Below, one piece after another: positions 5,612-30,223 of a stretch of 39,467 nt of DNA. The notes below the pieces were generated by a model that saw only the letters and a list, made by a program, of their open reading frames with translations, searched no databases and had not been told where the DNA came from. Location: contig SXHN01000119.1 of assembly GCA_005773635.1 (NCBI GenBank), positions 1 through 39,467 on the forward strand, written 5' to 3'. How positions within the stretch are numbered: position 1 is the first letter of the stretch; every line of letters starts with the position of its first letter. Origin of the DNA: Actinomycetota bacterium (GTDB lineage: Bacteria > Actinomycetota > Acidimicrobiia > IMCC26256 > PALSA-610). The position numbers were made by a program, and so were the translations under genes.

Positions 5612-7411
5612 ATGCCGAAGCTGCGCGCGCGTAAAGAGATTCAGTTTCTTGGCGCGCTGGTGCAGGCCGATCGCCCGCTTGCTGTGCTCTGGTATGCGCT
5701 CTTAGTTCTGCGCGGCGTGTTGCCGGCATTGTTAGCGATCTCAACCGGCGTGTTGGTTTCCGCGGTGACGCGTGGCGATTCGCTCACGGGTCCGTTGATC
5801 TTTGTTGGTGTGGTGTTTGTGCTCTACCAAACCCTCGCCCCGTTGCATCGCGCTGCGAGTGCGAACCTGGGGAGCAAGACGTCGGCATGGCTCAACGATC
5901 GGTTGATGGCCGCATGCACCAAACCCAATGGCATGGCGCACCTCGAGCGAGCGGACCTCATTCACGACCTCACTGTCGCTCGCGACTTTGACCTTGGCAT
6001 TATGGGGCCGCCTATGCACATCTCGATCGACTTCATCGCGACCGGATTGGTGGAGATGGTGGTGGGTTTGGCATCGGCGATGGTGCTGTTCGATTTCGCC
6101 TGGTGGGCGCCGATCGTGTTGTTGATTGGTTGGGGATCCACGCACTGGTTGCTCCGCGAGAGTGCCGTGTGGGCCGATCGCGACACGCCAGAGGTGCGTG
6201 ACGCGCAACGTCACGCCGAATACGCGTATCGGCTCGCGGTCGATGCTCCCGCGGCGAAGGAACTGCGCTTGTTTGGTTTGGCGCCGTGGGTGGTTGATCG
6301 TTTTTCGACGCGGCGCCGGCTCTTGCAGGAATTGCGTTGGCGAGCCACCAAGTTGCGTGAAAAGTCAATGATTGGTGCACTTATCATCGTGCTCGGCGCG
6401 AATTTGCTTGTCGCTTGGCGAATCGGCGTAGAAGCCAACGCAGGTACAATCGGGTTAGGTGCGGCCGCCGTATTTCTCACCACGATGATGCAAACCTCGA
6501 CCGTTGCGTTTGGCGGTTTTGGTTGGGCGCTCGACGGAGCCGCGGCTCCCGTGGCCGCCGTGTTGCGGCTCGAAGCCTCGATGCTCAAAGCCGGTGAGCT
6601 GCCGCAAGGCACACGCGTTGCAACGGGGTTACCCACCCACATGATTCGCTTCAGCGACGTCACGTTCTCGTACCGCGACGACACGCCGAAGGTGCTCGAC
6701 GGATTTACCCTCGACATCAAAGCAGGAGAATCAATAGCAATCGTTGGTGTGAACGGCGCAGGCAAGACCACGCTGGCGAAACTTCTTTGCCGCCTCTACG
6801 ACCCGCAATCGGGTTCCATCGAGATCGACGGTGTCGATCTCAAAGAGTTTGACATCGAATCTTGGCGCTCACGAGTCACGATGGTGTTCCAAGACTTTGT
6901 CCAATACGAACGCAGCCTGCGCGCCAATGTTGCGCCGCTTGGCGCGTCCGACGACTCAATCAATCAAGCGCTCATCGACGCTGGCGCGATGCATCTTGCT
7001 GAGCTGGACACGATCTTGTCGAAGGGATATCCCGGCGGTACCAATCTGTCGGGCGGACAATGGCAGCGGGTCGCACTGGCTCGCGCGCTGTGCTCAGTCA
7101 ACGAGGGCGCCGGGCTCGTGCTGCTCGACGAACCGACCGCACAGCTCGATGTGCGCGGCGAATCCGAAATTTTCGAACGCGTCCTCGAAGCGACGCGTGG
7201 CATCACAACGATTTTGGTTTCGCATCGCTTCTCTACTGTGCGCCAAGTCGACCGGATCTGTGTGGTGGAACACGGCAAGGTTGTCGAGCTCGGAAGCCAC
7301 GAAGAACTGATGTCGCTCGGTGGGCGCTACCAAACGATGTTCGATATGCAAGCTGCCCATTTTGTCGAAGTCGACGATGCCGGAGAGGAGATGAGCTATG
7401 AATCCCTCTGA
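5612..7411 (+). CDS. ABC exporter half-transporter, first subunit
   Basis: About 599 aa with an N-terminal transmembrane domain (about residues 25-300) and a C-terminal nucleotide-binding domain. NBD motifs are Walker A GVNGAGKTT (about 379-387), Q-loop MVFQDFVQYE, a canonical signature LSGGQ (about 479-483), Walker B GLVLLDEPTAQLD with catalytic Glu, and H-loop VSHRFSTV. It resembles actinobacterial multidrug, peptide or lantibiotic-type exporters. The start is uncertain: in-frame ATGs at 5564, 5594 and 5612 all lack a good Shine-Dalgarno, and 5612 is chosen because conserved sequence starts soon after. It overlaps the next gene by 14 nt, which suggests a heterodimeric exporter made from one message. 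Substrate unknown. Confidence 0.9.
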   Translation: MPKLRARKEIQFLGALVQADRPLAVLWYALLVLRGVLPALLAISTGVLVSAVTRGDSLTGPLIFVGVVFVLYQTLAPLHRAASANLGSKTSAWLNDRLMAACTKPNGMAHLERADLIHDLTVARDFDLGIMGPPMHISIDFIATGLVEMVVGLASAMVLFDFAWWAPIVLLIGWGSTHWLLRESAVWADRDTPEVRDAQRHAEYAYRLAVDAPAAKELRLFGLAPWVVDRFSTRRRLLQELRWRATKLREKSMIGALIIVLGANLLVAWRIGVEANAGTIGLGAAAVFLTTMMQTSTVAFGGFGWALDGAAAPVAAVLRLEASMLKAGELPQGTRVATGLPTHMIRFSDVTFSYRDDTPKVLDGFTLDIKAGESIAIVGVNGAGKTTLAKLLCRLYDPQSGSIEIDGVDLKEFDIESWRSRVTMVFQDFVQYERSLRANVAPLGASDDSINQALIDAGAMHLAELDTILSKGYPGGTNLSGGQWQRVALARALCSVNEGAGLVLLDEPTAQLDVRGESEIFERVLEATRGITTILVSHRFSTVRQVDRICVVEHGKVVELGSHEELMSLGGRYQTMFDMQAAHFVEVDDAGEEMSYESL

Positions 7412-9212
7412 GCCGGTAGCAACCCAAGGCGATGACATGCCGACCGCGGTGCGGTCACTTGTTCGCATGGTGAAACTTGGTTACAAAGCAGAACCGAAGC
7501 TGATTACCGCAACATTTGCGATGACGATGTTCGCAGCGCTTCCCGACGCGTTGGTTGCATTGTGGCTGAAACTGCTCGCGTCTGGTATTGACGATAATCG
7601 CAAGAACTTGGTGATGATTGCCGCGATTGGCCTCGGCATTTCCGCAACCGGCACGTGGTGGCTCAAGGTGGTATTCGATCGGCTCACGAGAAAGTTCAAA
7701 GATCGTGTATCGGTGGCGCTCGAATCACACGTGGCCACGTTGCAGGCCTCGGTCGCCACAATCGAACATCACGAGCGTCCCGAATATCTGGACCGCCTGG
7801 CGATGCTTCGCGACCAAGCGTTTGCTCTCGATCATCTTTTTGATTCGATTTTCGCAACGTTGGGGTGGATCGTACGGCTACTCATCGTGATCGTGCTTCT
7901 GGCCTCGGTGCATCCGGCGCTCATCTTGCTCGCAGTATTTGCGATCCCCACCGTGATGGCTTCGAGTTCACGGCCAATGGTGGAGCGCAAGGTACAAGAG
8001 TCGGTGGCTGCACGCGATCGCCAAGCGAAGCACGTGTTCCAGATCGCCACGACCGCACCCGCAGGTAAAGAAGTGCGGGTCGCCCAAATCGGTGCGCAGC
8101 TCATCGACGACCGTCGAGCTGCGTGGGATGCTTGGTACGCGCCATTGGCGACTACTCGTTGGACGAGCGCGTGGGTGACCTCTGCGTCATGGGCATTCTT
8201 CGGGCTTGCGTACGTGGGTGCGATCGTGTTTGTCGCGGCAGGGCTGGACTCGCGTGCTGGCGCAGTGCTGTTGGTCGTCGCGGCAGGCGGACGGCTTTCC
8301 GCGTATATCGGCGCGGCTGTCGGGGAGCTTGGGTTTCTGCGAAGCTTCTGGCTCGATGCCGGCCGCAAGTTGTGTTGGCTGGAGGACTATGCCGCCGCGC
8401 TCGCGTCACATGGCGATCTCGTGGTGCCCGACAAGCTGACGAAGGGCATCACCTTCGATCACGTTTCGTTTTCGTATCCCGGCACCGACCGGCTTGTGCT
8501 CGACGACGCCACGCTCACCTTGCCGGCGGGAGCGGTTGTCGCGATTGTCGGTGAAAACGGTGCGGGCAAGACCACGTTGGTGAAACTCCTGGCGCAGATG
8601 TATGCGCCAACCAGCGGCATGATCACCGTCGATGGTCAAAATCTTGCGCACTTCGCCCATGAACAATGGCGTCACGAACTCGCCGGGGCGTTTCAAGATT
8701 TCTTTCGTTTCGAGTTTCAGGCGATGACCAGTGTGGGTCTCGGAGACCTCGCGCACCTCGATAATCGTCCAGTGGTTGAAGCGGCCGTTGATCGGTCTGG
8801 TGCTCACGACCTCATCCAAGCGCTCGAGCATGGTCTCGATACTCAACTCGGTGCGGGCTGGGAAGGCGGCGCTGAGCTGAGTCATGGCCAATGGCAGAAG
8901 CTCGCACTCGCGCGTGGCTTCATGCGTGCCGATCCGTTGGTGCTTGTGCTCGATGAACCCACAAGCGCACTTGATGCCGAAACTGAACACGCGTTGTTCG
9001 AGCGTTACGCGACTGCGGCACGCGGTGGCGCTGCGGCGAATGGACGCATCACGTTGTTAGTTTCGCATCGGTTCTCGACAGTGCGCATGGCAGACCTCAT
9101 CGTGGTGCTCGATGGTGCGCGGGTTGCTGAGGTTGGTAGCCACGAACAGCTCATGGCGAATGGCGGCTTGTACAGCGAGCTCTACACAATCCAAGCGCAG
9201 GCCTACCAGTAA
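7398..9212 (+). CDS. ABC exporter half-transporter, second subunit
   Basis: 604-aa partner of the preceding half-transporter. The TMD spans about residues 30-320. NBD motifs are Walker A GENGAGKTT (about 385-393), Q-loop AFQDFFRFEF, signature LSHGQ (about 494-498, the second Gly replaced by His), Walker B LVLVLDEPTSALD with the catalytic Glu, and H-loop VSHRFSTV. The degenerate signature suggests the two ATP sites of the heterodimer are unequal, as in other heterodimeric ABC exporters, although here both Walker B Glu residues remain. The ATG at 7398 lies inside the end of the first subunit gene. It is followed by the repeat array at 9234-9507 and converges with the MarR gene. Confidence 0.9.
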   Translation: MNPSEPVATQGDDMPTAVRSLVRMVKLGYKAEPKLITATFAMTMFAALPDALVALWLKLLASGIDDNRKNLVMIAAIGLGISATGTWWLKVVFDRLTRKFKDRVSVALESHVATLQASVATIEHHERPEYLDRLAMLRDQAFALDHLFDSIFATLGWIVRLLIVIVLLASVHPALILLAVFAIPTVMASSSRPMVERKVQESVAARDRQAKHVFQIATTAPAGKEVRVAQIGAQLIDDRRAAWDAWYAPLATTRWTSAWVTSASWAFFGLAYVGAIVFVAAGLDSRAGAVLLVVAAGGRLSAYIGAAVGELGFLRSFWLDAGRKLCWLEDYAAALASHGDLVVPDKLTKGITFDHVSFSYPGTDRLVLDDATLTLPAGAVVAIVGENGAGKTTLVKLLAQMYAPTSGMITVDGQNLAHFAHEQWRHELAGAFQDFFRFEFQAMTSVGLGDLAHLDNRPVVEAAVDRSGAHDLIQALEHGLDTQLGAGWEGGAELSHGQWQKLALARGFMRADPLVLVLDEPTSALDAETEHALFERYATAARGGAAANGRITLLVSHRFSTVRMADLIVVLDGARVAEVGSHEQLMANGGLYSELYTIQAQAYQ

Positions 9213-9233
9213 CGCACGGGCGCGGCCGTCCGG

Positions 9234-9507
9234 GGTGGTCACACGATGTGCGGGGATGCGCGGCTTGTGTGGGACCGCGTCGCTTGTGCGGGCGCCGAGA
9301 CTTGGGGTGGTCACACGATGTGCGGGGATGCGCGCCTTGTGTGGGACCGCGACGCTTGTGTCGGGCGCCGGGCGGGGCCGTCCGGGGGTGGTCACACGAT
9401 GTGCGGGGATGCGCGGCTTGTGTGGGACCGCGACGCGCTTGTGTCGGGCGCCGAGACTTGGGGTGGTCACACGATGTGCGGGGATGCGCGGCTTGTGTGG
9501 GACCGCG
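9234..9507 (+). repeat. Four-copy array of a 46-nt dyad-containing repeat (left array)
   Basis: This fills the 298-nt gap between the ABC gene and the convergent marR gene. Units lie at 9234-9279, 9306-9351, 9387-9432 and 9462-9507, each exactly 46 nt, beginning GGTGGTCACACGATG and ending TGTGGGACCGCG. Units 1, 3 and 4 are identical; unit 2 differs at one base. Linkers are 26, 35 and 29 nt and are themselves related (CGCTTGTG, then GGGCGCC). Each unit has outer arms GGTC...GACC plus CACA...TGTG that can form an imperfect hairpin. The last unit ends 3 nt before the marR stop, so the transcript tails of both convergent genes may carry it. The same unit recurs at 13438-13556. Nothing else is seen in this gap. 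Confidence 0.9.
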
Positions 9508-9510
9508 ACG

Positions 9511-10020
9511 CTACGGGTGCTCGCCGAGCGCTCGCAGCAGCTTGTCGAAGAGGCGATCCAACGTGGCACGTTCGCTGGCTGCGATGCCGTCGAGCAACAC
9601 TCGTTGCGCATCGCTGACCGCTTCAATCGCGGCATCAGCTGCGCGTCGACCCTCAACGGTTAACGAGATCAACCATGCTCGCCGATCGTCGGGGTCAGTG
9701 CGACGATTGATGAGTCCGGCATTGTGCAACCGGTCGAGGCGGTTGGTCATGCCTGCTGGCGACACCATCGCGGCACGCGCCAACGTTCCAGGGTTCAGCT
9801 CCGCGCCCGCTCCGCGGCGCCGCAACGTCGCAAGCACATCAAATTCGCCGAGATTGATCCCGTGCGGCGTAAGTGCAGCTTCGACGCGGGGAATGGCCTC
9901 GTTTTGGAATCGAGCCAACCGCAGGCAGGTGGCCATGGCATTGAAGTCGAGATCGGGCCGCTCGATCGACCAGGTATCGATGGTGTCGCGTACGAGATCG
10001 GAGGCGTTCACAGCCACCAT
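9511..10020 (-). CDS. MarR-family transcriptional regulator
   Basis: A 169-aa winged-helix regulator. The MarR core is visible: LTPHGINLGEFDVLATLRRR, LNPGTLARAAMVSPAGMTNR (recognition helix), LDRLHNAGLINRRTDPDDRR (helix plus wing with the DxR motif) and LTVEGRRAADAA. The long helical N-terminus and the C-terminal helix would form the dimer interface. ATG 10020 is chosen; an in-frame TTG at 10029 is possible, and no Shine-Dalgarno is evident. It is divergent from the dioxygenase-SDR-hydroxylase genes and separated from them by 67 nt that contain a perfect palindrome. It is therefore the likely local repressor, relieved by an aromatic ligand (inference from family habits). Confidence 0.9.
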   Translation of the reverse strand: MVAVNASDLVRDTIDTWSIERPDLDFNAMATCLRLARFQNEAIPRVEAALTPHGINLGEFDVLATLRRRGAGAELNPGTLARAAMVSPAGMTNRLDRLHNAGLINRRTDPDDRRAWLISLTVEGRRAADAAIEAVSDAQRVLLDGIAASERATLDRLFDKLLRALGEHP

Positions 10021-10051
10021 CGTAGTCAAAATTAATTCATGTTAGAAACAT

Positions 10052-10081
10052 TTGACATCGAATATTTCGATTCTGTACTAT
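10052..10081 (+). promoter_or_regulatory. Sigma-70-type promoter with embedded palindromic operator
   Basis: TTGACA (10052-10057) and TACTAT (10076-10081) are separated by 18 nt. This would place transcription start about 7 nt after the -10, essentially at the ATG at 10088, so the mRNA is probably leaderless. Between the hexamers lies the perfect palindrome ATCGAATATTTCGAT (10057-10071, 6-3-6), ideally placed for a MarR repressor to block RNA polymerase. The site also sits upstream of the leftward marR gene, so autoregulation is plausible. Promoter and operator functions are inferred from sequence only. Confidence 0.7.
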
Positions 10082-10087
10082 TGGGTC

Positions 10088-11017
10088 ATGTCCGAACCAA
10101 TTATCCGAGTCCAAGATGTTGCGTTTCCTCGCTTCTCAGGCCCCGACCTGGAGGTAATGCAGATGTTTCTTGAATCCTTCGGGATGCATCTGTCCGCTCG
10201 CACCGATGACGCCCTGTACATGCGTGGCACCGACACCAATCATCACGTGCACGTATGTCATCTTGGAGATCCCGGATTCGTTGGCCTCGCGTTTCAAGCC
10301 ACAGCTGAGCAACTCGAAACTCTCGCCGCCGCGACTGGCATCGCAGTGGAACGGAGTCTCGAACCCGGTGGGGGAGTTGTGGTGCACCTTCAAGATCCAG
10401 ACGGCCGGGTCGTCGATGTGGTTGCGGGGATTGACCCGCTAGCTCCGTTGCCGTTGCGCGTTCATGCTGCGACAAATACTGGAGAGTCTCGATTGCGTCT
10501 CGGCACCTTGCAGCGGGTCGAAGCGGGGCCTGCGCAGGTGAAACGCTTCGGACACGCCGCGATCAAAACGGCGTCGCTCGCGTCGGTTGCGACTTGGTAT
10601 CACGACACACTTGGTCTGCTGATCTCCGACGATCTTTGGATTGAAAGCCCAGACCAGCCCAATGGCAGGTTCATGCGTTGCGATCGGGGCGACAAACATG
10701 TTGATCACCACAGCTTGTTGATTATTGAAACTGGCGAATCCAAATTGGGTCATTGCGCATGGGAAGTGGCCGATTTCGACGACTTGATGTACGGGCACGA
10801 AACACTTGCTGCTGCGGGTTATCAGCCATATTGGGGAATCGGCCGCCATGTACTCGGCGGGCAAGTGTTTGACTATTGGAAAGACCCGCTTGGCTTCACG
10901 GTGGAACACTGGACCGATAGCGATCTCCTCAACTCAAGCACTCCTGCGGGTTCGCGATTCTTGTTTGAGCCGATTAATCAGTGGGGCCCGAATCCACCTG
11001 GCGATCTCGACTTCTAA
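10088..11017 (+). CDS. Type I extradiol ring-cleavage dioxygenase (VOC superfamily)
   Basis: A 309-aa two-domain vicinal-oxygen-chelate protein resembling catechol 2,3-dioxygenase and 2,3-dihydroxybiphenyl dioxygenase. The catalytic domain shows the Fe(II) triad: His156 (RFGHAAIK), His222 (LGHCAWEV) and Glu273 (GFTVEHW). Active-site candidates are His207/208 (VDHHSL), His254 (GRHVLGG) and Tyr263 (FDYWKDP), as in bona fide extradiol enzymes. The N-terminal domain (about 1-120) is the non-catalytic repeat. It would insert O2 next to two ring hydroxyls. ATG 10088 is chosen; 12 further in-frame codons upstream overlap the promoter. It is the first gene of a three-gene operon with the SDR and the hydroxylase, downstream of the MarR operator. 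The exact catechol is unknown. Confidence 0.88.
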   Translation: MSEPIIRVQDVAFPRFSGPDLEVMQMFLESFGMHLSARTDDALYMRGTDTNHHVHVCHLGDPGFVGLAFQATAEQLETLAAATGIAVERSLEPGGGVVVHLQDPDGRVVDVVAGIDPLAPLPLRVHAATNTGESRLRLGTLQRVEAGPAQVKRFGHAAIKTASLASVATWYHDTLGLLISDDLWIESPDQPNGRFMRCDRGDKHVDHHSLLIIETGESKLGHCAWEVADFDDLMYGHETLAAAGYQPYWGIGRHVLGGQVFDYWKDPLGFTVEHWTDSDLLNSSTPAGSRFLFEPINQWGPNPPGDLDF

Positions 11018-11029
11018 GAGGAAACTTCA

Positions 11030-11812
11030 ATGGATTTAGGTATTTCTCAGCGTCGTGCAATTGTGACCGCGTCGAGTGCTGGGCTCGGATTCGCTTGTGC
11101 GCAAGCGTTAGTGCGAGAAGGTGTGCACGTTGTGATCAACGGTCGCGATCGCGACAACCTCGAAGCCGCAGCCCTGCAGTTGCGAGACCTTGGAGCTGTC
11201 GACCAAGTGATCGCGGTGTGCGGCAACATTGAGAACGAATCGACACGAGCGGCACTCTTTGCTGCGTGTCCTGCACCCGACATTCTTGTGAACAACAACG
11301 GAGGTCCGAACCCTGGTCGATTCGGCGAATGGAAGCGCGACGATTGGATTGCCGCGATCGACTCCAACATGCTCGCGCCGATCGCGATGATTCAAGGCTC
11401 GATCGATGGGATGGTGCAACGCCAATTCGGTCGAATTGTCAACATCACCTCCGCGATGGTGAAGAGTCCACGTAGCCCGATGGGATTGTCATCGGCGGCT
11501 CGCACCGGGCTCACCGCAGTGTGCAAAGGTTTGTCACGCGACGTAGCGCACGCGAACGTGACAATCAACAACTTGCTACCAGAACGCATCGATACTGGGC
11601 GGCAGCGACAAATGGCCGAGCTCGCAGTCACCTTCAAAGGGATCACGCTTGAAGAGGCCTACGACGATATTGCTCAGACGATCGCCGCCAAGCGTCTCGG
11701 ACGGCCAGACGAATTTGGTGCGGCATGTGCGTTTCTGTGTAGCGCTCATGCCGGCTTCATCAGTGGTCAAAACATCGGCATCGACGGCGGCACCTACGAA
11801 GGCCTGATCTAG
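11030..11812 (+). CDS. Atypical short-chain dehydrogenase/reductase-like protein
   Basis: A 260-aa SDR-fold protein. The cofactor region reads VTASSAGLGFACAQ (a variant of TGxxxGxG) and NNNGGP in place of NNAG. The catalytic Ser (NITSAM) is present, but the usual YxxxK is replaced by SSAAR, so both the catalytic Tyr and Lys are missing. This resembles the BKR-like SDR subgroup known to lack the canonical tetrad. The tail FISGQNIGIDGGTYEGLI is typical of the family. AGAGGAA precedes the ATG. It lies 12 nt after the dioxygenase, and its stop shares one base with the hydroxylase GTG. Normal SDR redox chemistry is doubtful; a ring-fission-product or other role is open. Confidence 0.85.
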   Translation: MDLGISQRRAIVTASSAGLGFACAQALVREGVHVVINGRDRDNLEAAALQLRDLGAVDQVIAVCGNIENESTRAALFAACPAPDILVNNNGGPNPGRFGEWKRDDWIAAIDSNMLAPIAMIQGSIDGMVQRQFGRIVNITSAMVKSPRSPMGLSSAARTGLTAVCKGLSRDVAHANVTINNLLPERIDTGRQRQMAELAVTFKGITLEEAYDDIAQTIAAKRLGRPDEFGAACAFLCSAHAGFISGQNIGIDGGTYEGLI

Positions 11813-13398
11813 TGCAGCAACGCCCTCTTAATATTGATGTTTTGGTTGTTGGTGCAGGCCCGACCGGCTTGACCGCTGCAATCCTGTTGCATCGTTTGGG
11901 GCTTCGAGTGCGCATCGTTGATCAACGCGGAGGCCCGCAGCGTGCTCCGGCCGCGCATGCGGTGAACGCCCGTTCCTTCGAGGTGTGGCGCCAGGCTGGA
12001 GTCAACGTGGACCTGCTTCGGGCGGCTGCGACATCACCCCGCGATGCGGCAGCAACGAATTGGGTGACGAAGCTCGGCGGCAATCTGCTTGGGAGTTTGC
12101 CGTACGAACGTCAGGGCGACGAGATGTTGGCAGTAACGCCAACACCGTTGCGCAATTTGTCGCAGCATCGTCTTGAACCGCTGTTGGTTGCCGAATCGCT
12201 GGCAATTGGCATTGATGTTGAGTACTCGACGACCTGGGTATCGAGTGTGCAGGGCGACGCTTTCATCGATACGGCGTTGCAGTCAGCGTCAGGCGCGGAT
12301 CAAAATGTTCGGGCCAAGTATTTGTTGGCGTGTGATGGGGCGGGCAGCCCGATCCGGCGGTCGTTGGGGATTCAACCGATCGGCCCAGCAAAGCTGCAGC
12401 AGTTTTTGATGGTGCAATTCGAAGCCAACCTGCGGACGATCGTGGCAGAGCAGCTCGGCATCCTATTTTTTGTCATGGACCCCGAATCGAACGGAGTATT
12501 TGTCGCCCACGACGTCGATCACGATTGGGTGTACATGCATCCGTTCGACAGTGATGTCGAACCGATCGAGACATTCACCACAACCCATTGTGAAGCGTTA
12601 GTGCGCGCCGCGATGGTTCCCAACGATGTGCCGATGGCAGTCAAGACGGTCTCGGCGTGGACCATGACGTCGCAGGTTGTGGACCGTTATCAAGCCGGCC
12701 GAATTTTTTTGGTAGGCGATAGCGCGCATCGTTTCCCGCCGACCGGAGGTCTTGGGTTGAACACCGGTGTGCAGGACGCCCACAACCTTGCGTGGAAAAT
12801 CGCAGCCGTGCTTCACGGCACGGCGGGCGAGGAGCTGCTCGACTCCTATGAGGCTGAACGCCGACCAGTCGCTATCAACAACGGCGAGCAGAGTCTCACG
12901 AATGCGTTCAAGATGATTGAGGTGCCGATCGCTCTCGGCACAGACCCCGATGTAGGTGTCGCACGAAACAACATGGATGCCGTCCTGGCTTCGGCCGAAG
13001 GTCGCGCCAGCGTCGCCGCCGCGATCGCGAACCAAGCCGCGCACTTCGACATGATTGGCTTGCAACTTGGCATGATTTACGGCGATGAGCGCGACCAATC
13101 GAAGGTGGATGTCTCGCGCTACGAGCCGTCGTCGACCCCTGGCGGTCGCCTCCCTCACGCCTGGGTGATCCGAGAGGGGCGGTCGGTCTCGACACTCGAC
13201 CTGATACCACTCGACCGGTATGTAGTTTTCCTCGGGCCAGACGCATCGATGCCGCCGGGATACGGGCTGGCCCTGCAGATGCGCGTGGATCGAAACGATG
13301 ATGCACTACAACGTTGGTGGACAACCATCCTTGGGCTCAACGACTCGTCGGTTCTCGTCGTGCGCCCGGATCAACACATTCAGTCCCGTCAGATCTAG
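11812..13398 (+). CDS. FAD-dependent aromatic hydroxylase (TfdB/MhpA-like)
   Basis: A 528-aa class A flavoprotein monooxygenase. It carries the dinucleotide motif VVGAGPTGLTAAIL (GxGxxG about residues 14-19), the DG motif LLACDGAGSPIRRSLG, the GD motif FLVGDSAHRFPPTGGLGLNT (about 298-315) with the following GVQDAHNLAWK, and a C-terminal thioredoxin-like remnant as in phenol and 3-hydroxyphenylpropionate hydroxylases. It would hydroxylate a phenolic ring using NAD(P)H and O2, giving the catechol cleaved by the dioxygenase. The GTG start at 11812 overlaps the SDR stop by one base. No membrane segments. It is the last gene of the module and is followed directly by the right repeat array. Substrate unknown. 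Confidence 0.9.
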   Translation: MQQRPLNIDVLVVGAGPTGLTAAILLHRLGLRVRIVDQRGGPQRAPAAHAVNARSFEVWRQAGVNVDLLRAAATSPRDAAATNWVTKLGGNLLGSLPYERQGDEMLAVTPTPLRNLSQHRLEPLLVAESLAIGIDVEYSTTWVSSVQGDAFIDTALQSASGADQNVRAKYLLACDGAGSPIRRSLGIQPIGPAKLQQFLMVQFEANLRTIVAEQLGILFFVMDPESNGVFVAHDVDHDWVYMHPFDSDVEPIETFTTTHCEALVRAAMVPNDVPMAVKTVSAWTMTSQVVDRYQAGRIFLVGDSAHRFPPTGGLGLNTGVQDAHNLAWKIAAVLHGTAGEELLDSYEAERRPVAINNGEQSLTNAFKMIEVPIALGTDPDVGVARNNMDAVLASAEGRASVAAAIANQAAHFDMIGLQLGMIYGDERDQSKVDVSRYEPSSTPGGRLPHAWVIREGRSVSTLDLIPLDRYVVFLGPDASMPPGYGLALQMRVDRNDDALQRWWTTILGLNDSSVLVVRPDQHIQSRQI

Positions 13399-13437
13399 CG
13401 CCCGCGTTCCCACATTTTGGCGTCGTACTCACCTCGA

Positions 13438-13556
13438 GGTGGTCCCACGATGTGCGGGGATGCGCGGCTTGTGTAGGACCGCGGCGCTTGTGTCGGGCAC
13501 TGAGCCGCGAGGTGGTCCCACAATCTGGCCGCGAAGGCGCAAATCGTGGGACCGCG
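13438..13556 (+). repeat. Two-copy array of the same 46-nt repeat (right array)
   Basis: Two more units lie between the hydroxylase stop and leuS, in the same orientation as the left array. Unit 13438-13483 matches the left units except two bases, one in each outer arm. Unit 13511-13556 keeps the exact 46-nt length and both ends, but its middle is different and it forms a stronger hairpin: GGTCCCAC (13514-13521) pairs perfectly with GTGGGACC (13546-13553). The linker is 27 nt and starts with the same CGCTTGTGTCGGGC found in the left array. The 13399-13437 and 13557-13586 flanks hold only short spacer before leuS. Confidence 0.88.
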
Positions 13557-13586: not shown

Positions 13587-16544
13587 ATGAGCGATTCAAC
13601 ACACGACACCCCCAAGTTCCGCTACAACGCCGCGTTCGCGAACGAGATCGAACGCAAATGGCAGGACTATTGGGAGGCTGAACGCACCTTTTGGGCGCCG
13701 AACCCCACCGGGTTGTTGAGCGATGTGAATCGCGAGCGAGCGCACCTTCCCAAGAAATTCGTGCTCGATATGTTTCCGTACCCGAGCGGCGCAGGGTTGC
13801 ATGTCGGCCACCCCCTTGGATTTATCGGCACCGATGTGTATGCCCGTTTCATGCGTATGCAGGGTTTCAATGTGTTGCATGCAATGGGCTATGACGCGTT
13901 CGGCTTGCCTGCCGAACAGTATGCAGTGCAGACCGGGCAACACCCCGCGGTCACCACCGAACAAAACATCACCACCTACCGGGCTCAGCTCCGCATGCTC
14001 GGCCTCGGCCACGATCCTCGCCGTGGCGTCAGCACCACCGACGTCGGCTACTACAAGTGGACGCAATGGATCTTCTTGCAGGTGTTCAACAGTTGGTACG
14101 ACCATTCGAATGATTGTGCCCGCCATGTTGACGAACTTGTGAGGGAACTCGACGCGGGGCTGCGTTTGCCCGACGATGACGGCGTGCCGTGGGCCGAACG
14201 CGACGCACTCGAACAACGGCGCTACGTCGACGATCACCGCCTGGTGTACGTGGGTGAGGCGCCGGTGAACTGGTGCCCCGGTTTGGGAACCGTGTTAGCG
14301 AACGAAGAAGTGACTGCAGATGGTCGTAGCGAGCGCGGCAACTTCCCTGTGTACAAACGGCCACTGAAGCAATGGATGATGCGAATTACCGAGTACTCGG
14401 ATCGGCTGATTGCTGATCTCGACCAGCTTGATTGGCCCGATTCGATCAAACTGATGCAACGCAACTGGATCGGTAAATCCATCGGCGCCGAAGTCGACTT
14501 CCATGTTGTCGGCAAGAAGGGAGCGTCCCGCCAGGGCGCCGCAGCGGAGCAAGGCGAGCCGACCGACCAGGATGCAAGCGACGACACCCTCATTTCGGTA
14601 TTTACCACTCGTCCCGACACGTTGTTTGGCGCTACGTACATGGTGCTGGCGCCCGAACATGAGTTGGTCGATCACATCACTCCGAACGAATGGCCGGAAT
14701 GCCGGCCGGAGTGGCGCGGAATTTTTGGAGCGCACCGTTCGCCGTCTGAAGCTGTATCGGCCTACCGCGACTTCGCCAGCGCGAAGAGCGAACTGGAACG
14801 TACTTCTGAAGGTAAACAAAAGACCGGTGTATTCACGGGCGCCTTCGCCGTAAATCCCGTCAATGGTGCAGAAATACCTGTATTCATTGCCGATTATGTG
14901 CTCACCGGCTACGGAACTGGTGCGATCATGGCGGTTCCTGCGCACGACGCACGCGACTTTGAATTTGCACGCGAATTCGTGATCGACGTTGTGCCGGTGA
15001 TTACACCGTCGCCGGAGTGGTTGCTGAACCATGAAGGCGCGATCGCGGCCGATTGTGCCACCTGGAGTGAATCGTTCCACGGCGATGGTGTCGCAATGAA
15101 TAGCGCGAATGAAGGTGTGTCACTCAACGGGCTGAAGGTGCGCGAAGCCAAGGCCGCCATTATCGAGTGGCTTGTTGGTGAAAACCGGGGCGCGGCAACG
15201 ACGAACTACAAACTCCGCGACTGGTTGTTTTCTCGCCAGCGCTATTGGGGCGAACCGTTCCCGATTGTGTATGACGAGCACGGTCCGATCGCTGTGCCCG
15301 AATCAATGCTGCCCGTAACGCTCCCCGAAATTTCCAATTTCGAACCGGCAACGAGTGATGACCCGGATGCGTTGCCGTCGCCTCCGCTTGGCCGCGCTGA
15401 GGATTGGGTTGAAGTTGAATTCGATCTCGGCGATGGCCCTCGCGTGTATCGACGCGAGGTGAACACGATGCCGCAATGGGCGGGTTCGTGTTGGTATTAC
15501 TTGCGTTATCTCGACCCGACGAACGAAGACCGGTTTGTGGATCGCGAAACCGAACGCTATTGGGGCGAAAACAAACAAGAAGCCGTCGGTGCGGTCGACC
15601 TCTACGTCGGCGGGGTGGAACACGCGGTGCTGCACCTGTTGTACTCGCGGTTCTGGCACAAAGTGTTGTTCGACCTTGGTCATGTCAGTACGCCCGAACC
15701 GTTTCAACGCTTGTTCAATCAGGGCTATATCCAAGCGTATGCCTATACCGATGAACGGGGCATGTACGTAGAGGCGAGCGAGGTCGTTGAACGAGATGGT
15801 GCCTTCACGCACAACGGTAAAGTGGTGAATCGCGAATACGGCAAGATAGGCAAGAGCCTGAAGAACGTTGTCACACCGAACGACATGTGCGATGAATACG
15901 GCGCCGATACGTTCAGAATGTACGAAATGTTTATGGGGCCGCTCGACGCCAGCAGGCCGTGGAGCACGCGCGATGTGGTCGGCGTCAATCGGTATTTGCA
16001 ACGCCTTTGGCGAAGCTGCATCGACGAAACCTCCGGCGATTCGCGCGTCGTCGACGCAGACATTGACGACGACACGCGCCGCGTGCTGCACCGCACGATT
16101 GCTGCGATTACCAACGACATCTCTGTACTCGGCTTCAACACCGTGGTCGCGCGATTGTTCGAACTCAATAATCACCTCACGAAGTTGGTGGAAGCCTCCG
16201 GGAGCGCGCCGCGCGCCGTCGTCGAACCGCTCATCTTGATGACGTCACCAGTCGCGCCCCACATTGCTGAGGAACTCTGGCAACGGTTAGGCCATACCAC
16301 CACGTGTGCCTACGAACCATTTCCGGTGCACGATCCCAAGTGGCTCGTAGCCGACACCGTGGAGATTCCAGTGCAGATCAACGGCAAGGTGCGCGGCAAA
16401 GTGACGGTCGCCTCCGACGCCACCCAGGCCACCTGCGAAGCGGCGGCGCGAGCCGATGAGCGAGTCGCAGCACTCCTTGTGGGAGCAACCGTGCGCAAGA
16501 CCGTTGTGGTGCCAGGTCGGATGGTGAATTTCGTCGTCGGGTAG
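13587..16544 (+). CDS. leuS: Leucyl-tRNA synthetase
   Basis: A 985-aa class I aminoacyl-tRNA synthetase that charges tRNA-Leu in the cytoplasm. The HIGH box reads HVGH (about residues 72-75) in [17 protein letters not shown]. The large CP1 editing domain lies at about 245-440 (contains [16 protein letters not shown] and [19 protein letters not shown]). A zinc-domain-like region contains [16 protein letters not shown]. The KMSKS loop is KIGKS (about 753-757), with a C-terminal anticodon-binding and [10 protein letters not shown] tail domain. Length is close to other actinobacterial LeuS (about 960-970), with small insertions, for example around 308-330. ATG 13587 is followed directly by the typical N-terminus. 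Single-copy essential gene; the upstream region is the repeat array. Confidence 0.98.
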
Positions 16545-29424: not shown

Positions 29425-29433
29425 CGCGGGTCT

Positions 29434-29473
29434 ATGAGTGCCCCCGCTGCGTTATGAGTGCTCACGCGGCTTT
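29434..29473 (+). repeat. Tandem 20-nt repeat forming two coupled 7-codon mini-ORFs before rsmE
   Basis: Between dnaJ and rsmE the sequence ATGAGTGCTCACGC recurs with an exact 20-nt period at 29434, 29454 and 29474 (the first copy reads GCCCCCGC instead of GCTCACGC). Because 20 is not a multiple of 3, the ATGs lie in successive frames. ATG 29434 encodes MSAPAAL and stops at a TGA overlapping ATG 29454. That ATG encodes MSAHAAL and stops at a TGA overlapping ATG 29474, the rsmE start. The result is two mini-ORFs chained by ATGA stop-start overlaps. The rsmE N-terminus, MSAHAGS, is the third copy. Confidence 0.85.
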
Positions 29474-30223
29474 ATGAGTGCTCACGCTGGTTCCTTCACT
29501 GCTGCGGTCGCTCATGCCTTTGTGGCATCGCTCAACGACGATGTCACCATCAATGGCGACGACGGTCGGCACCTCGCGCGCGTTCGACGGCTGCGAAGCG
29601 GTGAGGTCATCACGCTTGCCGACGGCAACGGCAACTGGCGCGGCTACGAGATAGTGAATGTCGAACATACGGGTCTGACCGTGCGAGCGATCTCCGACGA
29701 AATACGGGAACCGGATCTTGCGCCGCGTATCAGCATTGCCCCGGCGTTGATCGCCAAGAACCGATTCGACGACATGATCGTGGCCGCCGTCGAGCTTGGT
29801 GTCGACGCGATTCTGCCATTCGCTGCGCACCGCAGCGTTGTCGAATGGCGCGGCGAGAAAGCTGCGGCTGCGAATCATCGTTTGCAGCGTCTTGCCCGAG
29901 AAGCCGCCATGCAATGCCGAAGATCGCATCTGCCACGCGTGGGCGGGGTCGTTGATGCCCAGCGATTGAGCGCAGAGCCCGGCCTTGTGATCGCCGCAGC
30001 CGATGGTCTCGGCGTCAGGGAATTCGCGATGCAACCTATTCCGCCTCATGAGTGGACAGTGGTGAGCGGGCCTGAAGGCGGTCTCGACCCAATCGACATT
30101 GCCATGCTCGAACAAGCCGGAGCTATCCCGCGGCTTCGGCTCGGGCCTCACGTACTTCGAGCTGAGACGGCTCCGCTTGCGGCGATCGCTGCGCTCAACA
30201 CCTTGCGCGATGTCATCGGCTGA
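29474..30223 (+). CDS. rsmE: 16S rRNA m3U1498 methyltransferase RsmE
   Basis: A 249-aa SPOUT-class methyltransferase that modifies U1498 of 16S rRNA. The N-terminal PUA-like part contains GDDGRHLARVRRLRSGEVIT and LADGNGNWRGY. The SPOUT domain has APALIAKNRFDDMIVAAVEL, GVDAILPFAAHRSVVEWRGE, then RLQRLAREAAMQCRRSHLPR and the knot and SAM loop VVSGPEGGLDPIDIAMLEQA with LRLGPHVLRAETAPLAAIA. ATG 29474 is the third of three ATGs in a tandem repeat; an in-frame codon at 29438 would add 12 unlike residues. It follows dnaJ, as in other actinobacteria. Confidence 0.95.
   Translation: MSAHAGSFTAAVAHAFVASLNDDVTINGDDGRHLARVRRLRSGEVITLADGNGNWRGYEIVNVEHTGLTVRAISDEIREPDLAPRISIAPALIAKNRFDDMIVAAVELGVDAILPFAAHRSVVEWRGEKAAAANHRLQRLAREAAMQCRRSHLPRVGGVVDAQRLSAEPGLVIAAADGLGVREFAMQPIPPHEWTVVSGPEGGLDPIDIAMLEQAGAIPRLRLGPHVLRAETAPLAAIAALNTLRDVIG

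Follow-up and report, generated by a model that had tools for sequence, protein, structure and literature searches.

The window analysed here, a 39,467-nucleotide (nt) stretch of contig SXHN01000119.1 from an Actinomycetota genome, contains a four-gene module that lies between an ABC transporter gene and leuS and is bracketed on both sides by arrays of a short palindromic element. An initial annotation described this module as flanked by six copies of a 46-nt repeat, through which it could be lost, gained or amplified. The elements, a nuclease gene associated with them elsewhere in the genome, and the bearing of both on the module are described below. The genome under study (G000) was compared with those of a sister species (G001), of a member of another genus (G006) and of a member of another family (G040), among others. 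The features of the locus are as follows, the element cores being scored in bits with a covariance model (R1) built from 37 copies.

7398-9212, + strand: ABC transporter gene ABC2, left neighbour, shared with the sister species (82% identity and same position in locus L061, with an array behind it there too)
9217-9512, - strand: left array, four units with a period of 72-81 nt (detected by a tandem repeat finder, as repeat family D1 and by covariance model matches)
9237-9276, - strand: 40-base-pair (bp) palindromic element, core 1 (R1, 55.5 bits)
9309-9348, - strand: 40-bp palindromic element, core 2 (R1, 53.6 bits)
9390-9429, - strand: 40-bp palindromic element, core 3 (R1, 55.5 bits)
9465-9504, - strand: 40-bp palindromic element, core 4 (R1, 55.5 bits)
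9511-10029, - strand: MarR-family regulator (PF01047, 5e-12; 52% identical homologue at the same position in G040)
10088-11017, + strand: glyoxalase-superfamily extradiol dioxygenase (PF00903, 1e-6; weak HpaD and catechol 2,3-dioxygenase matches; 70% identical in G040)
11030-11812, + strand: short-chain dehydrogenase/reductase (SDR) (PF13561, 4e-34; 69% identical in G040)
11812-13398, + strand: FAD-dependent aromatic hydroxylase (PF01494, 7e-83; 54% identical in G040)
13441-13480, - strand: 40-bp element, core 5, right array (2-3 mismatches with the left array; covariance model match)
13514-13553, - strand: 40-bp element, core 6, right array (interior diverged, 8-bp arms perfect; covariance model match)
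13587-16544, + strand: leuS, right neighbour

The 46-nt unit occurs at positions 9234, 9306, 9387, 9462 and 13438, in five copies that lie on one strand with 0-2 mismatches, and no match to it was obtained in 100 shuffled sequences. Unit 4 ends at position 9507, and the marR stop codon (9511-9513, minus strand) follows after 3 nt; the left array occupies the gap between the convergent genes ABC2 and marR, and unit 5 starts 39 nt past the hydroxylase stop (13398). The searches of the rest of the window yielded no further copies. The initial annotation was therefore accurate as to the position of the four left units, the common orientation of all six, their absence elsewhere in the window and, according to the Pfam matches, the gene content of the module. 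It requires correction on two points: of the two units placed after the hydroxylase gene, both present (13438 and 13511), the second (13511-13556) has kept its arms but not its interior, with 13/45 mismatches to the genome consensus; and what is conserved within the 46-nt unit is a 40-bp core (9237-9276 and its counterparts), repeated with a period of 72-81 nt. Between the left array and the first unit of the right array there are 2-3 differences, whereas every array located outside the window shows at least 6 differences to the left array. The two window arrays are thus mutual nearest relatives within the genome and form a private subfamily with a single orientation.

A dispersed family of 40-bp palindromes

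The repeat is not confined to the module. Indeed, a search of the genome with the repeat revealed dozens more repeat sites at the DNA level, and model R1 identified 55 elements in 30 arrays across G000, with no match in 13 other family members. The conserved 40-bp core reads GGTC[C/A]CAC-N24-GTG[G/T]GACC, and the elements are mostly organised in head-to-tail arrays, with a period of 73 nt almost everywhere; the linkers of one array resemble each other, and many contain a GGCGC motif. Every one of the 30 arrays is intergenic: convergent genes flank 13 of them and codirectional genes the other 17. Divergent gaps contain no array, although they make up 34 of 156 background gaps of at least 40 nt (Fisher P = 4e-4). 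Most of the arrays are located some tens of nt or less from a stop codon. Single units do not fold better than shuffled sequences and the arms do not covary (pair 5-36 is mismatched in 17 of the 37 distinct sequences), so that the conservation does not concern an RNA hairpin, and this reading of the repeat was rejected. The repeat has no match in Rfam.

The same architecture was found in related genomes. The stricter pattern GGTCCCW-N-WGGGACC is enriched in three genomes only, G000 (19 matches), the sister species G001 (13) and G006 (5), and all matches in these genomes are exactly 40 nt long, although 36-48 nt were allowed; a class-wide scan of 296 genomes detected six others with one match each. 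The interiors of the elements differ among species, as do the periods of the arrays (51 nt in G001 and about 62-63 nt in G006). The sister species carries its own version of the element at intergenic sites shared with G000, namely behind ABC2 and at C66, C53 and C96, as well as at the C85 site, where it surrounds a nuclease gene; at C53, the array is followed by a terminator-like hairpin in both genomes. Other repeats were also noticed at sites of this kind in the sister species: AATGGCCCCCT repeats occupy a gap (L147:2027-2137, G001:C56) in which G000 has an array (C25:117420), and a further repeat, TTGGTCAGTCG..GCTCCG..GGGACGCTCCCT, occupies two sites (L151 and L155, in G001:C98 and C8) that hold GGTC arrays in G000.

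The AbiEi-like nuclease gene and its framing repeats

A gene coding for a protein of 316 amino acids (G000:C51:19775-20725) is located between two arrays. The protein has no Pfam match of its own and matches AbiEi in PADLOC (5e-13), and its relatives match AbiEi_4 at the N-terminal end and REase_MTES_1575/DUF559 at the C-terminal end. Its closest homologues are encoded in G001 (50% identity) and in G006 (43% identity). The C51 gene and these homologues (G001:C91 and G006:C32) each have the 40-bp elements of their own species on both sides, in three genomes and two genera, with 2 + 3 framing units in G000, 3 + 2 in G001 and 2 + 1 in G006. The G000 and G001 genes lie in different genomic contexts. 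Indeed, the G000 site (C85) that corresponds to the array-gene-array arrangement of G001:C91 contains a bare two-unit array, and the G001 counterpart of the G000 C51 site (infB) contains no nuclease gene.

In G000, G001 and G002, more distant relatives of the nuclease have quite other palindromes on their two sides, and the two members of each pair match one another. When flanks were compared with each other, 10 of the 14 testable members, close and distant ones taken together, scored 25-73, and of about 421 control genes 8 scored above 15 (P = 7e-13); cysS, a GNAT gene, tRNA fragments and low-complexity DNA are among the controls above this threshold. For several of these other palindrome families, dispersed copies were seen within the few per cent of genome sequence that were examined. 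A scan of a sequence collection with the nuclease alignment returned four loci, of which L164 and L166 are the G001 loci again, L163 is truncated at the end and L165 shows a marginal flank match only; no nuclease homologue was found in the plasmid collection. Among individual loci, a near-perfect palindrome, CCTGTGTCCCAC..GTGGGACACAGG, surrounds a distant nuclease relative in G001:C65 (L133:1400-1447 and 2421-2468), and this gene with its repeats occupies a site that holds a GGTC array in G000 (C20:53510). Another relative, in G000:C45 (L138:1355-1411 and 2417-2642), has inverted flanking repeats, one side of which is multiplied with a 73-nt period. Separately, three apparent tRNA 3'-end fragments, reminiscent of an integration site, were noticed between methyltransferase and sulfatase genes in G028 (L075:5200-8700).

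In the AlphaFold2 model of the C51 protein (pLDDT 86.6), residues 13-204 match the AbiEi antitoxin 6y8q (Z 11.8, 181 residues, root mean square deviation 3.9) and residues 212-316 match the catalytic domain of I-Bth0305I, an EDxHD homing endonuclease (3r3p, Z 10.7); the next matches of residues 210-316 are 3hrl (Z 10.5) and Vsr (1cw0, Z 8.1). Residues E215, E257, D259, H264 and D274 are invariant in an alignment of 12 sequences. Binding to inverted repeats has been demonstrated in vitro for AbiEi and Rv2827c, and the repeats bound by AbiEi antitoxins lie in their own promoters (PMC7319586); I-Bth0305I dimerises on a target that spans nearly 60 bp (PMC3943268). The element family probably has a cognate gene, coding for an endonuclease of the Vsr/EDxHD type joined to an AbiEi-like DNA-binding domain.

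The bracketed operon and the competing explanations

The locus of the sister species (L061) consists of ABC1, ABC2, an array, two other reading frames and leuS, without the module; the array behind ABC2 is single and has two units of the sister's own version. Among 60 relatives searched, the hydroxylase and the dioxygenase occur together only in G040, in the same four-gene unit with a divergent marR (identities of 52, 70, 69 and 54% in gene order), and one further genome encodes a 40% identical dioxygenase alone. The G+C content of the module, overall and at third codon positions, is ordinary, and recent transfer is not signalled by base composition. Three pairs of arrays are at most 4.3 kb apart, against 1.03 expected (P = 0.08), one around cysS, one around the gene for the 316-residue protein and one around the module. 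The cysS gene, bracketed by arrays in G000, stands in a thrS-cysS order that is conserved in the sister species, and a comparison of gene maps showed that, for 14 of the 30 arrays, the two flanking genes are neighbours in G001 too. Bracketing alone is therefore weak evidence that a gene has moved, in view of cysS, of these conserved neighbours and of the P value for close pairs. At the level of the window, the claim is a modest one: an accessory operon lies between two closely related arrays of a mobile-looking family. Near leuS, two long low-complexity insertions with repeats such as ASGGSVAPLGARA and ASAGERGRSGALGG were observed in LeuS of the sister species (L061:6593-9808) and not in that of the window, and in G010 a GNAT acetyltransferase gene upstream of leuS (L062:6401-6907) has 86-nt repeats with small palindromes on both sides. 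Elsewhere in the window (29433-29489), a 20-nt tandem repeat of 2.8 copies lies in the start region of the gene following dnaJ.

The explanation that we consider likely is that the repeats around the module belong to a dispersed palindromic family, comparable to REP and BIME repeats, with a nuclease gene of its own. It starts from what was directly observed (the family, its placement, the pairing of gene and repeats, the absence of the module from the sister species and the kinship of the two window arrays) and would extend it to binding, cutting and mobility of the elements. The AbiEi part would most likely bind the palindromes and the Vsr-type part would most likely cut at the bound palindromes, after which repair of the break, or transposition, could place copies of the elements, of the arrays and of the nuclease gene at further 3' ends of genes. 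In the window, an old array behind ABC2 could have been copied or split locally to yield the array before leuS, with an operon for aromatic catabolism, presumably acquired, now between the two. The kinship of the two arrays agrees with a single ancestral array that was divided or duplicated in place at the arrival of the operon or later; the arrays may have contributed to the gain of the module, and with the operon between them, loss or amplification by recombination is possible. Several points weigh against this explanation: movement was not observed; the module carries no nuclease gene; cysS is a case of bracketing without movement of a gene; four weaker nuclease homologues lack flanking repeats in the flank comparison; the same family is present at the orthologous G001 site for only five G000 array sites; target-site duplications were not discerned between occupied and empty sites, the flanks of which are too diverged; and all the genomes compared are drafts.

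A repeat-mediated cassette, in which the module was gained, lost or amplified by homologous recombination between the direct repeats or moved as an array-module-array composite mobilised by a nuclease in trans, is possible but clearly less probable. The sister species, without the module and with a single array behind ABC2, speaks for this proposal, as do the patchy distribution of an identical four-gene layout that recurs in another family, the private subfamily formed by the two window arrays in one orientation, and a nuclease gene that lies between arrays elsewhere and is missing from the orthologous site of the sister species. However, cysS is bracketed and yet not mobile, nearly half of the arrays (14/30) separate conserved neighbours, the three close pairs are within chance, no second copy of the array-module-array arrangement was seen, and the interval of the sister species holds other genes, which makes the site variable regardless. 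Comparison of the region upstream of leuS, proposed by the initial annotation, thus recovered a relative without the module and with one array at the left junction, but with other genes in place of a simple empty site. The suggestion that the module was lost, gained or amplified through its flanking repeats keeps the support of that absence, of the patchy distribution and of the kinship of the arrays, and is weakened by the genome-wide occurrence of the repeat, by the counter-evidence from bracketing and by the ordinary composition. The statement that no transposase or integrase is present holds for the window genes as read, short of a full domain scan, but a nuclease gene framed by arrays exists elsewhere in the genome.

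The strict location of the elements behind stop codons and never between divergent genes, the sites shared with the sister species and the C53 array preceding a terminator-like hairpin in both genomes could also indicate 3' elements with a function for the host (bidirectional terminators, stabilisers of mRNA ends or protein-binding boundary sites) that are under selection, the link with the nuclease being secondary. This is unlikely, as the units fold no better than shuffles and their arms lack covariation, only three genomes are enriched in the architecture, the family is missing from most orthologous sites of the sister species, and the bracketing of the nuclease genes would be left unexplained. 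Less likely still, the palindromes could be only autoregulatory operators of AbiEi-like regulators, with the dispersed copies as their regulon: AbiEi antitoxins do bind inverted repeats of their own promoters (PMC7319586), but here the gene has elements on either side, other genes have them behind their ends and not in front, divergent gene pairs have none between them, and a nuclease domain is fused to the protein. Finally, the regular spacing of 40-bp repeats by spacers of about 33 nt recalls a CRISPR or attC array, which we regard as hardly credible given spacers that are alike within arrays and often contain the GGCGC motif (cas genes were not searched), the scatter of 30 short arrays and the lack of an Rfam match.

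Relation to known systems and significance

The closest parallel is provided by the REP and BIME repeats, which together with the RAYT tyrosine transposases form REPtrons (PMC2817692, PMC3733652). As in those repeats, the elements described here are short, palindromic, species-specific and extragenic, and often clustered; as in the REP/RAYT systems, the gene has its cognate repeats on both sides, and several repeat families exist, each with its own gene. In contrast, the predicted enzyme combines an AbiEi fold with a Vsr/EDxHD-type nuclease and is not a HUH Y1 transposase. No RAYT was found, the search for PF01797 proteins being negative in G000, G001 and G006 and positive in control genomes. 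The elements also lack the GTAG or CGTC head of REP repeats (consensus GCGGTCCCACA..GTGGGACCACC), are arranged head-to-tail within arrays and are present in tens, not hundreds, of copies.

The predicted fold of the catalytic domain is shared with the EDxHD homing endonuclease I-Bth0305I. Unlike EDxHD homing endonucleases and free-standing homing genes, the protein has an AbiEi-like DNA-binding part, and its gene is framed by whole palindromes that have many dispersed copies, with no intron or intein seen. The AbiEi fold, predicted in the N-terminal two thirds of the protein, is shared with the AbiEi antitoxins of type IV toxin-antitoxin systems (AbiE, Rv2827c), from which the protein differs by the fused nuclease and by palindromes that are present on both sides of the gene and genome-wide. 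Most relatives scanned match the Vsr-like MTES_1575 and DUF559 restriction endonuclease families (PF18741 and PF04480), many of them below the curated cut-off. In the literature, no report was found linking AbiEi-Vsr, MTES_1575 or DUF559 genes to cognate palindromic repeats.

In summary, one lesson of this locus is that a repeat should be counted genome-wide before a module bracketed by it is named a cassette. Beyond the locus, the data raise the prospect, evenly balanced in our judgement, of a new class of small mobile elements, in which palindromes of fixed length would be bound, cut and spread by an AbiEi-Vsr-type endonuclease, with many such pairs per genome and with passenger operons carried between neighbouring arrays. 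Genes for AbiEi-Vsr fusions match models filed under abortive infection or restriction-like nucleases, and a role in the spread of repeats would be new to the literature found. If each of them is the dedicated enzyme of one palindromic repeat family, these genes would gain a function, the way of life of REP and RAYT would have evolved twice, each time with its own catalyst, and it would become testable where many of the unexplained palindromes between genes come from.

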